This document shows, in pieces, positions 1-8,883 of a DNA stretch of 64,000 nt. The position numbers and the translations under genes are program-made. Origin of the DNA: Methyloversatilis thermotolerans (lineage in GTDB: Bacteria > Pseudomonadota > Gammaproteobacteria > Burkholderiales > Rhodocyclaceae); the NCBI RefSeq assembly GCF_000372885.1, contig NZ_KB889967.1, positions 2,476,655 to 2,540,654 on the forward strand. Direction: 5' to 3'. The first letter of the stretch is position 1. Each line of letters begins with the position of its first letter. The notes beneath the pieces were generated by a model, which saw only the letters and a list, made by a program, of their open reading frames with translations, made no database searches and had not been told where the DNA came from.

Positions 1-933
1 CATGACCTCGGCCAGCACATCGACAGCGGTGCGCCGGGCATACTGGAGGCGACGTGGCGAATAGTGGTGACAGGCGATCAGTCCCCACAGCCGACCTTCG
101 CGTACCAGCGACGCGACCAGGGTCGCGGTGACGCCCATATTGGTGAGGTACTCGATGTGCAGGGGCGACATGCTGCGCAAATGACACATCGACATGTCGA
201 GTTCGCGGCCGGTGTCCGGCCGCAGCCGCGGATGCAGCGCGGACGGCCGGTAAGCTGCGTCGACCAGCACGCGTACCCGGTTGCGCAGGTACAGTTCGCG
301 CGCGCGCTGCGGGATGTCGCTCGCCGGATAGCGGTGGCCGAGCAGGGTATCGAGCCCGGGATCACGCGATTCGGCGATGATTTCGCCGTGCCCGTCGGCA
401 TCGAAGCGATACACCATGACGCGGTCGTATCCAGTGAGCGCCCGGATGTCCTCGGTCACCACCTGCGCCAGCGTCTCGACCGTGGTCGCTTCGCTGAATC
501 GGTGTACCGAGGCCGACAGCAGTCTGTGCATGTCGGCATTCGCCCCGTCGTTGGATGCAGCTTCCAGTTCGAGCACCAGCGCATCGTTGTCGACCCGATG
601 CAGCAGCGCCTCGAAAGCCCTGGCATGGAGTCCCAGGCCGGCCCGGCACTGAAAGGCGGTCAGCTCGTCGCCGCGGACCCGGTACAACTGGGTCGCCAGC
701 ATGCGTGCCACATCGCCGCCGATCACCGACAGCGGTCTTCCCAGCATGTCCGCGGCGTCGATACCCAGCCAATCGCGCACCGACTCGCTCGCCTGCAGCA
801 CGCTCAAATCACTTTCGCGCAGCAGGATCAATGCGCCATGAGGCTGCACGGAACCCGCCAGATGTATCAGCTCACGTTCGCAATTGGTGAGGTCGGCCTC
901 GCCGAACGGCGGTTCGAAATCAGTGCCTGTCAC
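1..933 (-). CDS. bphP: Bacteriophytochrome, N-terminal part (cut by window start)
   Basis: Red/far-red photoreceptor that binds biliverdin; 311 residues are visible and the PHY and output domains lie outside the window. Reading leftward from a GTG at 933, the N-terminal PAS region has the motif LTNCERELIHLAGSVQPHGA with the biliverdin-binding Cys at residue 18. The GAF domain has the phytochrome motif YPASDIPQRAR, with Asp206 matching the chromophore-binding Asp, and the conserved His259 in SPLHIEYLTNMG. The GTG is chosen because GAGG stands 6-9 bases upstream and the gene begins 8 bp after the end of the PpsR-like gene. Context: in several phototrophs BphP photoreceptors act on PpsR repressors, and here the partner would be the neighbouring HTH-less PpsR paralogue. 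The output domain cannot be judged. Confidence 0.93.
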   Translation of the reverse strand, partial: MTGTDFEPPFGEADLTNCERELIHLAGSVQPHGALILLRESDLSVLQASESVRDWLGIDAADMLGRPLSVIGGDVARMLATQLYRVRGDELTAFQCRAGLGLHARAFEALLHRVDNDALVLELEAASNDGANADMHRLLSASVHRFSEATTVETLAQVVTEDIRALTGYDRVMVYRFDADGHGEIIAESRDPGLDTLLGHRYPASDIPQRARELYLRNRVRVLVDAAYRPSALHPRLRPDTGRELDMSMCHLRSMSPLHIEYLTNMGVTATLVASLVREGRLWGLIACHHYSPRRLQYARRTAVDVLAEVM

Positions 934-941
934 AGGCCGCC

Positions 942-2126
942 TCAATGCACCTGTGCAACATCCTGACGTTCACCACCGCCGCGACTGGCCGTGCGGATGA
1001 TGAAACCGACTGCGTGAGTGTCGCCGTGGTGAATGAGTACTGCGGTAAGTTCGACCGGAACGTCCTGCCCGAACTGCGGGCGAATGCGCGCCTGTACGCG
1101 CAGCGCACCGCTTTTCGACAGCGAGCGCAGCAGCCCGTCCAGCCCGCCATCCACCCCGAGCAACCAGTCCGACAGCGGACGATTGCGCAGCGCGGCGACA
1201 TCGCCGACCTGGATCAAGGCGCTGAAAGCGGGGTTGGCATCGATCACGCGTCCGTCGTCGTGCGTGAATGCGACCGCGTCCGGTGTGAGCCGGACCAGCT
1301 CCGGCAGCATGTCCTCGTCCACTGCGGGCCATTGCCGCTCCTGGCCTGCACGCATCAGCAACAGGGTGCTGCCTTCATCGCGGAACAGCGCGATGCGCAC
1401 GTGAACCGGTCCGCCGCCATGCGCCAGCTCGCATATCATTTCCGCCGGGCGCTCCGACATGCGCACAGCGCCAAGCAATGCCTCGAGCGAGCGTCGCGAG
1501 GCGTCAGTGAGCCCGATGCCGGCCGGCCGGCCGTGCATGTCCGACACCACGGCGCCGAACAGCCTGCCTGCCGCCCGGTTGGCATCGACGATGCGCAGGC
1601 TTTCGGCATCGATCACCACCACCGCATCGGTCGCGATCTGGAACAGCAGGCGATAGCGGGTTTCCGCCTGCCGCATGCGCCAGTAGTCGCGCTCCATGGC
1701 CTGCTGGGCGTCAACCAGCCGTTGCTGCATCGCCGCCACCGCGCGCAGATCGCGTCCGACCACCAGGGTCGGTCCCTGGGTGCCCAGGCGAACAGCGGTA
1801 TAGGCCACCGGAACATCGGCCCCCTGAGCGGAAGGATGATTGATGTGACGGGTGCGCGACACGCCCCCCTGCCCCGCCTCGGCGAGCAGTTCGGCCACCT
1901 TGTCGCGCGTATCGTCGCTCGCGGTGTCGCGCATCTGGCGACCCAGCCATTCGCTGGCGGTGGTGCGCATGGGTTCGCTGCCGCCCAGCGCCACGCTGCG
2001 GATCACTCCGTCGTCGTCGAGCACGAGCGCGATGTCGCTGGCCACCGACACGAGCATGTCGGCAAGCTCCGGTGCAACATCGGAGAAGGCACTCAGATCC
2101 GCCTGATCTTGAGGAAGTCTGGTCAC
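942..2126 (-). CDS. PpsR-like PAS-domain protein without a DNA-binding domain
   Basis: Paralogue of PpsR (the gene at 6360-7847), about 394 residues. It shares the PpsR layout: an N-terminal PAS-like region (SDIALVLDDDGVIRSVALGG), the linker LVVGRDLRAVAAMQQRLVDAQQAMERDYWRMRQ written here only by its key features (AMQQRLVDAQQ coiled helix), a PAS domain starting RYRLLFQIATDAVVVID, and a last PAS domain (LTPDAVAFTHDDGRVIDANPAFSAL). It stops at ...ASRGGGERQDVAQVH, where true PpsR continues into a Fis-type helix-turn-helix, so it should not bind DNA by itself. Start is uncertain: GTG at 2126 gives an N-terminus of PpsR length; in-frame starts also exist at 2207 and 2279. It lies between tspO and bphP in the same direction, 8 bp from bphP. 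Likely role (inference): protein-protein modulator of PpsR or BphP partner. Confidence 0.85.
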   Translation of the reverse strand: MTRLPQDQADLSAFSDVAPELADMLVSVASDIALVLDDDGVIRSVALGGSEPMRTTASEWLGRQMRDTASDDTRDKVAELLAEAGQGGVSRTRHINHPSAQGADVPVAYTAVRLGTQGPTLVVGRDLRAVAAMQQRLVDAQQAMERDYWRMRQAETRYRLLFQIATDAVVVIDAESLRIVDANRAAGRLFGAVVSDMHGRPAGIGLTDASRRSLEALLGAVRMSERPAEMICELAHGGGPVHVRIALFRDEGSTLLLMRAGQERQWPAVDEDMLPELVRLTPDAVAFTHDDGRVIDANPAFSALIQVGDVAALRNRPLSDWLLGVDGGLDGLLRSLSKSGALRVQARIRPQFGQDVPVELTAVLIHHGDTHAVGFIIRTASRGGGERQDVAQVH

Positions 2127-2334
2127 GTCATAACCTGCTTGCCGGCTGCGCAGCCGCAGCGCGCATCCTGCGTCAATCGGTGCTGTCCGCTCGGCGACTC
2201 CGCCCATGCGGCTCGGAATCGCGCTTGCAGGCCGTTTCGGCGTCGGGGACAAAATCCTTCGGCCGGCCTTTACCGGCATGCTACGGCAAGTTCGTCCTGG
2301 ACGGCGTTGCCAGACGAAAAAAAGAGAGGTCCGT

Positions 2335-2826
2335 TCAGCCGAACGGACCGTTCAGGGACACCACCGCACCGTTGAGCGCCGCCGCGAACGCGACCCACAG
2401 CGCATAGGGGAGAAGGAGGGCGGCGGCGCGCGCCGACCAGGGCCGCAACATGTGCATCAGCAGCAGGATGGACAGCCAGAGCAGCCCCACTTCGTACAGC
2501 GCCAGGTCCGGTCGGCGCGCCAGAAAGAACAGTGCGCTCCACGACACGTTCAGTGCGCCATTGAGCGCAAACGCGCCAAGCAGCCACATGCGATGCCGGT
2601 GCGAAGGCATGGCGCGCCAGCCCAGCACCCCGGCCGCCGCCGCCAGGCCGAAAATGAGCGTCCAGGCCGGACCGAAAGCCCAGTCCGGTGGTTGCCAGGA
2701 CGGTTTGACGAGCGACCGGTACCAGTCGTCGATCCGCGTGACCGCGCCCCCCGCAGCGGCGACCGCAAACGCGGCAAGCGCCGCCGTCGCAACCGGCTTG
2801 AGCCGACCGGGGCGCGCCGCGTTCAT
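2335..2826 (-). CDS. tspO: TspO/MBR family tryptophan-rich sensory protein
   Basis: Membrane protein of 163 residues with five predicted hydrophobic segments and the tryptophan-rich family signature (YRSLVKPSWQPPDWAFGPAWT, shown here as its key part; NVSWSALFF). TspO proteins bind tetrapyrroles; in Rhodobacter sphaeroides TspO negatively influences photosynthesis gene expression in response to oxygen. The start ATG overlaps the stop of bchP by 4 bp (ATGA), indicating translational coupling. Its position directly before the HTH-less PpsR paralogue and bphP suggests a regulatory more than a metabolic role here, which is inference. Confidence 0.95.
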   Translation of the reverse strand: MNAARPGRLKPVATAALAAFAVAAAGGAVTRIDDWYRSLVKPSWQPPDWAFGPAWTLIFGLAAAAGVLGWRAMPSHRHRMWLLGAFALNGALNVSWSALFFLARRPDLALYEVGLLWLSILLLMHMLRPWSARAAALLLPYALWVAFAAALNGAVVSLNGPFG

Positions 2827-6327: not shown

Positions 6328-6364
6328 TACAAACTTACACTTTCAAAGTCAAAAACAAGTTACA
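6322..6364 (-). promoter_or_regulatory. Tandem PpsR-like operators upstream of bchG
   Basis: Two 18-bp sites in the same orientation, 25 bp apart: TGTAAGTTTGTATTGACT (6339 to 6322 on the minus strand) and TGTAACTTGTTTTTGACT (6364 to 6347). Both fit TGT-N12-ACT, one base from the TGT-N12-ACA consensus of PpsR/CrtJ, and resemble the bchC site. The distal site contains the ppsR stop codon; the proximal one overlaps the -35 box. Confidence 0.65.
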
Positions 6365-7847
6365 CACCCCCTGCGTCATTGCCCTCATCCCCACCGAGGT
6401 CTCCGATGCCGTAGCGCCGCAGCTTGACGTACAGACTCTGTCGGCTCAGACCGAGCATTTCGGCCGCCGAAGCCCGGTTATCGCGGGTCAGTTCGAGCGC
6501 CGCCTCGATGCACAGCTTCTCGATCAGGTCGGTCGACTCGCGCACCAGATCCTTCAGCGACACGCGTCCGACCAGGCTGGTGAGTTGTTCCACCGAGCGC
6601 GGCAGCGCGGCACGCGAGGCCGGCTCGGCCTCCAGCCTTCGCCCCACGCTGCGCACGGTGAAACCGATGCGCGCCCGGCCGCCCTGCGGCAGCATGCGGG
6701 CGGACACCTCGATGTCGACGTCCGAGCCGTGCTCGCCGCGCAGCACGCTGGAAAACAGATGCACGCTGCCATGCTGGCGCAGGCTGACCATCAGCACCTT
6801 GAAGTCCACGCCTGGCCGCCCCAGCCATCGTTCCAGAGGCTGCCCTTTCACCTGCACCCGGCTCGCCAGTTGGGCAAGATCGAGGAAAGCCTGATTCGCG
6901 TTCGTCACGAGGCCCGCGTCATCGGTGAGCACGAAGCCATCCGGCACCATTTCGACCGCGTCGCTGACCACCAGCTGATCCTCGCCGCTGTCGGTGGCGC
7001 GTCGACCGATCGGCGCCAGCCGGACCAGGAACAGCGCACTGCTGTCCTGGCGTACCAGCGACGCCGCCACGCGCATCTCGCCACCATCGGTCCGGCGCAC
7101 GCGCACGTCCTCGGCGCGGCCGGCAGTGCGCACCGCGGCGAACAGGCCCTGCACCGCCTGCACACCCGCTTCATCCAGCCCTTCCGGAAAGGTCCGCCCG
7201 ATGACGGCGCGGCCATCGCCCGCAAGCAGACGCGCTGCCGACTCGTTCGCCTCGACAATGCGTTGCGACGTCGAATCGACCATCAGCACGGCTTCGGTCG
7301 TCATCTGGAACAGCAGCCGATAGCGCGCCTCGAGCTGCCGCAGCCGGGCATAGTCGCGCTCGATGGATTGCTGCGCGTCGACCAGCCGCTGCTGCATGAG
7401 CGACAGCGCCGAAAGATCGCGCCCCAGCGCCACGACCGGCCCGTCGCTGCCCACGCGCACCGCGCTGTACAGCACCGGCAGATCGGCACCGTCGCCCAGG
7501 GCATGGTTCAGATGCCGCGCCTGTCCGCTCACACCTGACAGCGCTTCCTGCAGCAGCTCGGCCACCTTGGATCGGCTCTCGACCGTCACGACATCGGCCC
7601 AGGGCAACCCTATCCAGCCATCGGCAAGGGTAGGCGGCAGGCTGCGGCCCGCGATCGAAACGTCGCGGACCAAGCCAGAGGCATCGATGATGAGTGCAAT
7701 ATCGGAGGATGACGACGCCAGCTTCGCCGCCGAAGCGGCATCGATGTCCTGCAAGAACTGCAGTGGAAAATCGAAGGGCTTCACCCGAGGGGATTCCAAT
7801 CCTGCGTCAATCTTCGCGAGATACTCGCGTCCCTGCTCCAGACCCAA
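6360..7847 (-). CDS. ppsR: Transcriptional repressor PpsR/CrtJ
   Basis: Full-length repressor of photosynthesis genes, 495 residues: N-terminal PAS-like region (SDIALIIDASGLVRDVS), a glutamine-rich linker helix (LMQQRLVDAQQSIERDYARL), two further PAS domains (RYRLLFQMTTEAVLMVD; MVPDGFVLTDDAGLVTNANQ), and a C-terminal Fis-type helix-turn-helix (about residues 440-480, ending NRASAAEMLGLSRQSLYVKL). Cys446, just before the helix-turn-helix, is the only cysteine in the protein, so the intramolecular disulfide described for Rhodobacter PpsR cannot form. The start is TTG at 7847, supported by GGAGG seven bases upstream. It follows ppaA by 26 bp. Confidence 0.96.
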   Translation of the reverse strand: MGLEQGREYLAKIDAGLESPRVKPFDFPLQFLQDIDAASAAKLASSSSDIALIIDASGLVRDVSIAGRSLPPTLADGWIGLPWADVVTVESRSKVAELLQEALSGVSGQARHLNHALGDGADLPVLYSAVRVGSDGPVVALGRDLSALSLMQQRLVDAQQSIERDYARLRQLEARYRLLFQMTTEAVLMVDSTSQRIVEANESAARLLAGDGRAVIGRTFPEGLDEAGVQAVQGLFAAVRTAGRAEDVRVRRTDGGEMRVAASLVRQDSSALFLVRLAPIGRRATDSGEDQLVVSDAVEMVPDGFVLTDDAGLVTNANQAFLDLAQLASRVQVKGQPLERWLGRPGVDFKVLMVSLRQHGSVHLFSSVLRGEHGSDVDIEVSARMLPQGGRARIGFTVRSVGRRLEAEPASRAALPRSVEQLTSLVGRVSLKDLVRESTDLIEKLCIEAALELTRDNRASAAEMLGLSRQSLYVKLRRYGIGDLGGDEGNDAGGV

Positions 7848-7873: not shown

Positions 7874-8701
7874 TCAGCCATGCGCGAAGCGCACCGGCAA
7901 CAAGGCTTCCGCCACATCGAGCGCGGTCGCCGCATCGCAGGCCCCCGCGTCAGCCCCCACGCCTGCGGCCAGATCGGCGCGCTCGGCAAAGAGCGGCCCG
8001 CCCACCATCACCACCAGATCGCGACGCCTCGACACACGGCGCGCCTGGGCGATCCAGGACCCGAGCTCGTCCAGCCGCGTCTCGCTGCCCAGCGAAACCC
8101 CCAGCAGATCGAATGATTCGCGCTGCAGGGCTGCCAATGTATCCGAAGGATGTGTCGGGCAATCCAGCCTGACATCCCAGTGCCGATGCCGGAAGAAATC
8201 GGCCAGCATTGACACGCCGAAAGTGTGCTGGTCGCCCGGAAGCGTACAGAACAGGGCCCTGCGACCATGCTCGTGGGCATGCACGTCCAGCCGGAAACAG
8301 GCGGCGACATCATGCTGCACCTGCTGCAGGCGCCACAAGCCCAGCGTTACCTGGGTGAAGTCGCACTCGTCGGCCACCCACAGCTCTCCCAGCCGGCGCG
8401 CCGCAGGCGCCAGCAGATCGAGACAGATCCGGCGCGGATCGATGCCGCGCGCCCTCACCCCATCGATCCAGTTGCGAACGACCGAGGCATCCTGCGCCAG
8501 AACAAGATGGGCGAATTCGCACACTTCCGCTTCGCAAATGACCGGATACGCCCGCAATTCAGTCGCCGGCGGCGCAGGTGCATGCTGCTGCACCAGCCGC
8601 GGAATCACGTCGACCTCGACCGAATGCGAGAGGTCGAGTATCCATCCGGACTTCCATTGAACCGGAACATCGCCCGCATCGGGTCTTGATGTGTGTGCCA
8701 T
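7874..8701 (-). CDS. ppaA: PpaA/AerR-type cobalamin-binding antirepressor
   Basis: Regulator of about 275 residues in the AerR/PpaA family, which bind cobalamin and modulate PpsR/CrtJ according to light. The N-terminal half holds the helical B12-binding region (RRLGELWVADECDFTQVTLGLWRLQQ by its key part ELW...E) and the C-terminal half a Rossmann-like cobalamin domain with a complete base-off motif D157-Q-H159-T-F-G162. ATG at 8701 is preferred: AAGGAGG lies 5-11 bases upstream; an upstream in-frame ATG (8722) lies before that site. It is the first gene of the leftward regulatory operon ppaA-ppsR, the same pairing seen in other purple bacteria. Confidence 0.94.
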   Translation of the reverse strand: MAHTSRPDAGDVPVQWKSGWILDLSHSVEVDVIPRLVQQHAPAPPATELRAYPVICEAEVCEFAHLVLAQDASVVRNWIDGVRARGIDPRRICLDLLAPAARRLGELWVADECDFTQVTLGLWRLQQVQHDVAACFRLDVHAHEHGRRALFCTLPGDQHTFGVSMLADFFRHRHWDVRLDCPTHPSDTLAALQRESFDLLGVSLGSETRLDELGSWIAQARRVSRRRDLVVMVGGPLFAERADLAAGVGADAGACDAATALDVAEALLPVRFAHG

Positions 8702-8883
8702 CCCATCCTCCTTCCGCCCCATTTTTGTCGTCAGGTCAGATCCGATCCACCCCACGCCGGGTGCTGGCCTGTACCGCGTGCGACCGGGTTGCCGTGATCG
8801 CGGAGAAGGAAGGGCCCGCGCACTGCAGCACGAGTCGCACCATCTCATGTGATCGGTACAAGAGCTTTACCGACCATGCCCTA

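Follow-up and report, generated by a model that had tools for sequence, protein, structure and literature searches.

The 64,000 nucleotides of Methyloversatilis thermotolerans DNA analysed here (contig NZ_KB889967.1, positions 2,476,655 to 2,540,654; below, the window) contain a short ppsR gene beside the gene of a bacteriophytochrome photoreceptor (bphP). Judged by its sequence, the short gene is a PpsR paralogue without the C-terminal helix-turn-helix (HTH), to be kept apart from the DNA-binding PpsR. Genes of this kind were found beside bphP in many genera, and the HTH has been lost at least twice independently in cassettes with a type-3 BphP. The ppsR2-bphP cassette itself was already known; the novelty is the pattern, a repeated loss of the HTH across genera. 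The comparisons below indicate that the BphP-PpsR2 switch has a DNA-binding-dead branch, which is real, conserved and more general than first noted, and the repeated loss suggests action through protein rather than DNA binding. No report of a natural HTH-less PpsR beside BphP was found in open-licence PubMed Central (PMC) full text, represented mostly by titles, the starts of abstracts and passages (subscription papers and preprints lie outside this scope). Papers are cited by PMC accession.

The short ppsR gene and its photoreceptor partner

The short gene (942..2126, minus strand; PpsR2-type, 394 amino acids) encodes N-PAS, Q-linker, PAS1 and PAS2 and ends after PAS2. It is contained in an open reading frame (ORF) at 942-2279(-), and GTG 2126 was preferred as the start because the genus relatives start at the same place. 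The protein scored 281.1 bits against NCBIfam PpsR-CrtJ (TIGR02040; cut-off 275.4) over model positions 1-366 of 442. Only one other ORF of the genome exceeds that cut-off, the canonical full-length PpsR (6360..7847, minus strand; 494.4 bits, positions 2-442 of 442), whose HTH is intact (HTH_8 at residues 442-479) and which is the proposed final target. HTH_8 was not found in the short PpsR by domain search, and a model of the canonical HTH gave it -2.6 bits, whereas in leave-one-out scoring all 39 canonical PpsRs reached 105.6 or more. The Fis-type C-terminal HTH of PpsR/CrtJ, which binds TGT-N12-ACA, is missing from the window gene. The first-pass annotation had described a PpsR PAS layout that ends before the HTH, and this was borne out. 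It had also named a frameshift that restores the HTH as a possible refutation; a three-frame scan 3' of PAS2 detected none, with maxima of -0.6 bits in the window and 0.8 in 13 relatives (positive control, canonical PpsR, 124.3 bits). A frameshift or assembly artefact was ruled out on these grounds and because all ten genus copies (10/10) stop at the same place.

The N-PAS/Q-linker/PAS1/PAS2 architecture was recovered by profile, by an AlphaFold2 model and by fold match. The model has a 39-residue helix between PAS folds (mean predicted local distance difference test score, pLDDT, 87.8). Its top Foldseek match, which is also the top sequence match, was 4hh2 ('PpsR without the HTH motif'), with the same N-Q-PAS1-PAS2 content; the global template modelling (TM) score was low (0.33), the domains being arranged differently. 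Whereas 4hh2 and the QPAS1 fragment (Q-linker plus PAS1) are laboratory truncations, the window PpsR2 is a natural, conserved gene product: the truncation introduced by hand in structural biology and optogenetics has a counterpart made by nature.

The 5' part of bphP occupies 1..933 (minus strand). As noted at first, it lies 8 bp from the short gene, its GTG start at 933 being separated from the ppsR2 stop by eight bases (934..941, minus strand). The gene extends beyond the window (L009:12774-14933, 719 amino acids), and its product is the one protein of the genome with a PHY match. By profile and structure matches the protein comprises PAS-GAF-PHY, a further PAS and a short C-terminal tail, and a kinase domain is absent. 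The nearest Protein Data Bank entries were 4gw9 (521.3 bits), which is RpBphP1 without its HOS (PMC6899989), and 5oy5 (BphP1; 456.2 bits), the next best reaching 315.7. The biliverdin Cys was present in 53 of 54 aligned type-3 BphP rows (one gap) and DIP and the R/S of PRxSF in 54 of 54; all three motifs also occur in the BphP of the window strain. The C-terminal region of about 80 residues was alignable among the 22 type-3 BphPs compared, a comparison that is limited as regards the two-helix HOS output domain, since 4gw9 is without it.

BphP is thus, by domain content and nearest structures, a kinase-less receptor of the RpBphP1 type (type 3), and the window locus is therefore the known ppsR2-bphP cassette. 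ppsR2 lies directly upstream of and co-directional with bphP, and the heme oxygenase gene (bphO) is convergent with it, which is the arrangement that defines the cassette. The two genes, their order and the convergent heme oxygenase recur in RpBphP1-RpPpsR2 of Rhodopseudomonas palustris and in BrBphP-PpsR2 of Bradyrhizobium (L176, L167), which likewise have a kinase-less type-3 BphP and, within the cluster, a canonical PpsR as well. RpPpsR2 and BrPpsR2 keep an intact HTH, whereas at the window locus and elsewhere in the HTH-lost set it is dead or absent. PpsR2 of the R. palustris/Bradyrhizobium type is described as a repressor (PMC10569730).

Thirteen genomes of Methyloversatilis were compared, of which ten carried two PpsRs and three none; BphP was present in the same ten. 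The second copy was HTH-less in 10/10, ending at model positions 362-369. Gene order was identical in the nine relatives fetched, with the exception of G774, whose canonical ppsR sits on a separate contig and where tspO was not picked up. Ratios of nonsynonymous to synonymous substitution (dN/dS) in eight genus pairs from seven genomes were 0.031-0.309 for PpsR2, 0.023-0.340 for PpsR and 0.069-0.403 for BphP, with dS near 1 and correspondingly rough ratios in the wider pairs; in the three closest pairs the PpsR2 ratio was 1.2-2.5 times that of canonical PpsR. PpsR2 is thus under purifying selection, constrained less than PpsR. The earlier proposal that an HTH-less PpsR is the operon partner of the photoreceptor held up: the gene is conserved beside an RpBphP1-type BphP, shows purifying selection and has kept its PAS domains and Q-linker, and a decoy or adaptor role is therefore plausible.

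State of the HTH across genomes and in trees

Named genomes were scanned with the BphP C-terminal alignment, and the best 80 of 483 confirmed loci were used. PpsR lay upstream on the same strand at 72 of the 80 type-3 bphP loci. Six of the other eight reach a contig edge or come close to one (L114, L120, L125, L149, L170, L172), and two, L131 and L183, had none. HTH scores fell into two non-overlapping sets, one of 26 loci at 55.2-79.0 bits and one of 46 at 40.5 bits or less, or with no match. The motif SRQ-x-L-[YH]-x-K-[LM] was found at 23 of the 26 intact loci and at none of the 46 HTH-lost ones. Loci were classed by HTH score and not by taxonomy. No title in the intact set is beta- or gammaproteobacterial and none in the HTH-lost set alphaproteobacterial, and titles that bear a class agree except for L165 and L169, both of the intact set. 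The HTH-lost genera included Methyloversatilis, Nevskia, Rhodoferax, Variovorax, Ramlibacter, Rhizobacter, Rubrivivax, Roseateles, Piscinibacter, Ideonella, Aquabacterium and Methylibium. The first-pass annotation had suggested a search of genomes for HTH-less PpsR next to bphP; the 46 loci, spread over many beta- and gammaproteobacteria, go beyond what it had noted. Another PpsR match was present in 40 of the 41 HTH-lost genomes searched (36 full length to position 442, four partial), the other five loci being from copies of genomes already searched.

Seven of the 46 loci were without any HTH tail and 39 carried a remnant. In Fis-type HTHs, residues of the recognition helix contact DNA. Among 42 distinct remnants, ten columns were kept at 83-100% (e.g. 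Ala 97%, Leu 100%, Gly 92%, Glu 90%) and the buried Leu of the recognition helix was retained at 83%; the canonical letters of that helix were kept at S 42, R 19, Q 7, S 21, Y 0, K 0, R 33 and R 47%. Helix 2 retained a mean share of 0.59 of the canonical letters, against 0.24 for the recognition helix and 0.35 for the first helices, which are thus also much altered. The remnant tail of the Rubrivivax albus PpsR2 model (L132) formed three helices with pLDDT mostly >90, and the remnant of G029/G284 was constrained (dN 0.020, dS 0.49 over 46 codons). The reading adopted is that DNA contacts would have been lost while the HTH fold was kept, and that some lineages later dropped the whole domain.

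Within the order of the window (399 genomes), 49 genomes had PpsR and ten had two; in 10/10 of the latter the second copy was directly upstream of BphP, with heme oxygenase convergent. BphP was not found in 11 fetched neighbourhoods (14-19 kb) out of the 39 single-PpsR genomes. In a phylum sample PpsR was present in 31 of 398 genomes, and the three with two PpsRs were all from the window's order. A further survey covered the order of G425 (397 genomes), to which the genomes of one Hyphomicrobiales-titled and one Bradyrhizobium-like locus belong; 75 genomes had PpsR, every listed match extended to position 441-442, and cassettes with an intact HTH were found in G1072 (one) and G1058 (two). The canonical-HTH model gave 62.4-72.5 bits for these three alphaproteobacterial cassette copies and at most 34.5 bits for 18 cassette copies of the window's order, 13 of which scored 4.8 or less or had no match. 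A TGA inside the G157 second-copy match is, by coordinates, a natural stop near model position 365 (flagged in three second copies).

In a tree of the PAS region alone (67 of 103 rows, near-copies removed), the intact or lost state of the HTH required two changes (0/200 bootstrap trees with one) and its complete absence four. One of these absence events is L117, whose BphP is in two frames, so that the 'absent' state is less sure; L117 was left out of the BphP tree. A single clade of the 35 HTH-lost rows was rejected by the approximately unbiased test (p-AU 1.5e-5; a grouping already known when the test was made). A lost group (G118, G157, G342, G254, G284, G029) fell inside the alphaproteobacterial cassettes in PpsR2 trees, with six rows in one tree and four in the 67-row tree (own support 89/96), and four of its members also had their BphPs nested among alphaproteobacterial BphPs. 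The nesting of both partners points to transfer of the cassette and to a renewed loss of the HTH. In a smaller tree the window PpsR2 grouped with other second copies (Shimodaira-Hasegawa-like approximate likelihood ratio, SH-aLRT, 82). In the BphP tree, beta/gamma- and alphaproteobacterial cassette BphPs formed one clade versus kinase-type BphPs.

Several observations were made beside this pattern. L165 (titled Candidatus Binatia) and L169 (titled Frankia sp. RB7) are Hyphomicrobiales-like and Bradyrhizobium-like photosynthesis loci, respectively, and are probably mislabelled or misbinned. At L131 (upstream of 7648) a betaproteobacterial type-3 BphP is preceded by a LysR-type regulator ORF, with no PpsR2; L183 (7684-9876), from a Gemmatimonadota-titled metagenome-assembled genome (MAG), combines a type-3 BphP with bchP/tspO, and its fetched flanks contain no PpsR2. 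Ten other second PpsRs fetched from the order of G425 are intact (83.6-105.3 bits with the canonical-HTH model) and divergent beside another phytochrome, which was of kinase type in 7/7 looked at. Those seven loci (L091, L092, L096, L097, L099, L101, L104) form a separate clade with other wiring. Solo HTH-less PpsRs in G069, G189 and G220, where the profile stretch ends at 367-368, were rejected, as BLAST reached canonical residue 488. These proteins (L049-L051) keep the HTH behind a longer PAS2-HTH linker, in ORFs of 538-553 amino acids from stop to stop. A crtJ homologue, ORF350, is reported in Roseateles depolymerans (PMC10037100) and might be such an HTH-less gene.

Proposed action of PpsR2 and its alternatives

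Id proteins are helix-loop-helix factors without the basic DNA-binding region that keep the parts for dimerisation. The preferred reading, which stands at about even confidence, is that PpsR2, itself unable to bind DNA, is a light-gated partner of full PpsR and acts on it in an Id-like way. By analogy with RpBphP1 and RpPpsR2, the output helices of BphP would attach to the Q-linker/PAS1 region of PpsR2 under far-red light (Pr state). PpsR2 and full PpsR would form mixed dimers or tetramers through their PAS domains, and the DNA-binding-dead PpsR2 would lower or alter DNA binding by PpsR, while BphP gates the amount of free PpsR2; either sign of the light effect is compatible. Id proteins and PpsR2 are both family members without DNA contacts that keep the dimerisation parts, but their folds are unrelated and the mixed dimers of PpsR2 are a proposal. 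Control of PpsR by binding of a photoreceptor is known for AppA-PpsR (PMC3949515) and LdaP-PpsR (PMC12654162); unlike there, a DNA-binding-less PpsR paralogue would be interposed, and no BLUF or LOV domain is involved.

The partnership of HTH-less PpsR2 with BphP is likely from conserved linkage and co-variation; the Id-like action on PpsR, gated by BphP, is inferred. Binding to BphP-Pr is suggested by analogy with RpBphP1, which binds RpPpsR2 in far-red light via its HOS (PMC6899989), and by conservation of the Q-linker. The equivalents of Q134/E138 in that linker were invariant in 64/64 HTH-lost rows, and it was the best conserved region. AppA binds the Q-linker of PpsR, and PpsR without the HTH dimerises and tetramerises with a Kd of 0.9 uM, equal to the full-length value (PMC3949515). 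Co-variation was measured on protein distances as partial r beyond two control genes with 2000 permutations; 40 genomes were chosen, and the 30 with all six proteins were used, 25 of them with a dead-HTH PpsR2 forming a subset. PpsR2-BphP co-variation was 0.43 (0/2000), and 0.57 in the subset. For the neighbouring pair PpsR-PpaA the value was 0.59 (subset 0.62).

Several results weigh against this reading. PpsR2-BphP co-variation may merely reflect linkage of neighbouring genes and not binding, and that of PpsR2 with PpsR was weak (0.14, 164/2000; subset 0.25, 12/2000). PAS2, needed for tetramers, was the least conserved part of HTH-lost PpsR2 (0.50 vs 0.64 in canonical PpsR), and the R339/L340 tetramer contacts were not uniformly retained. 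In three non-genus pairs dN/dS was 0.046-0.208 for PpsR2 vs 0.015-0.056 for PpsR, about three- to fourfold. The MAG G1140 (1/41) was without another PpsR match. One of the ten genus copies, that of G767 (L080:9181-10458), has an in-frame TAG in ppsR2, with the downstream bphP open; this is either strain-level loss or a sequencing error, and it counts against the gene being indispensable. The split copy was left out of trees and dN/dS. Finally, the beta/gamma- and alphaproteobacterial cassette PpsR clades were not sisters in two larger trees, and the window gene, a possible orthologue of RpPpsR2, is therefore called PpsR2 by its place and partner.

The strongest alternative, though judged unlikely, is that BphP acts directly on canonical PpsR and that HTH-less PpsR2 competes for BphP and sets a threshold, never touching PpsR. 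BphP-PpsR co-variation was high in the 25 dead-HTH genomes (partial r 0.53, 0/2000), a hint of direct contact, but weak over all 30 (0.17, 177/2000), and the BphP-PpaA comparison was also raised in the subset (0.24). The well-kept Q-linker is part of QPAS1, which is sufficient for BphP1 binding (PMC13058837), and would suit a sink; the N-domain and PAS2, however, would be superfluous for a plain sink, yet both are kept.

Less probable still is a rewired BphP-PpsR2 pair that has ceased to control PpsR targets and acts instead on an enzyme, on PpaA/AerR or on some other regulator. Loss of DNA binding would free PpsR2 for a new partner, canonical ppsR was not within the fetched stretch at 32/46 HTH-lost loci, and the type-3 BphP of L131 follows a LysR-type ORF without PpsR2; but cassette and canonical PpsR co-occur in the genus (10/13 both, 3/13 neither), and PpsR2-PpaA co-variation was weak (0.16, 91/2000). 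Decay of a redundant PpsR2, with remnant or absent HTHs marking genes that head to loss, would fit the TAG of G767, the series of erosion from dead HTH to none and the raised dN/dS of the non-genus pairs, but is very improbable given dN/dS well below 1 in all 11 pairs, an open frame in 9/10 genus copies, the constrained remnant of G029/G284 and retention of ppsR2 beside bphP at 46 HTH-lost loci across many genera.

On the preferred Id-like reading, a wider picture may be drawn, tentatively and with a little less than even confidence: beta- and gammaproteobacterial phototrophs would have evolved, at least twice, a light-gated counterpart of Id that a far-red photoreceptor releases or captures and that poisons or remodels PpsR oligomers, and the dead HTH may serve as a docking bundle for the HOS or PpsR. 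RpBphP1-PpsR2 is a pair in optogenetic use, and in nature it is assumed to work by taking a repressor off DNA in a light-dependent manner; in many genera the cassette partner is unable to bind DNA in the known way, and output must therefore run through protein contacts. The HTH-less forms also offer a direct test between two published ideas of BphP-PpsR2 contact, one through Q-linker/PAS1 (QPAS1) and one through HTH helices, which a model based on small-angle X-ray scattering pairs with the HOS (PMC6899989). If the picture is true, lineages without any HTH would show the modelled HTH-HOS contact to be dispensable.

Neighbouring genes and PpsR sites

tspO (2335..2826, minus strand) lies upstream of ppsR2 and outside the unit judged here. 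TspO had been proposed as part of the BphP-PpsR2 circuit, which was not sustained; it was rejected as a partner from gene order and a hairpin. tspO follows bchP in 3 of the 11 fetched single-PpsR neighbourhoods without bphP in the stretch (L063-L065) and was present at just 9/46 HTH-lost cassette loci. A terminator-like hairpin 3' of tspO (2328..2349, minus strand; 9-pair stem plus T-run) stands between bchG-pucC-bchP-tspO and ppsR2-bphP; such matches are near chance in the window (6 vs a shuffle mean of 4.3), and in relatives the hairpin was weaker in L082 and missing in L077 and L081. The proximity of tspO is, as far as these arrangements indicate, gene order.

Canonical ppsR is adjoined by a gene for a B12-binding protein (7874..8848, minus strand), PpaA/AerR-like by position and domains. 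No TGT-N12-ACA site was found 5' of ppsR2 in 2127-2334. The window holds 12 such sites versus a shuffle mean of 6.09 (0/100 shuffles reach 12), and two of them lie inside the ppsR2 coding region (1844, 2033).

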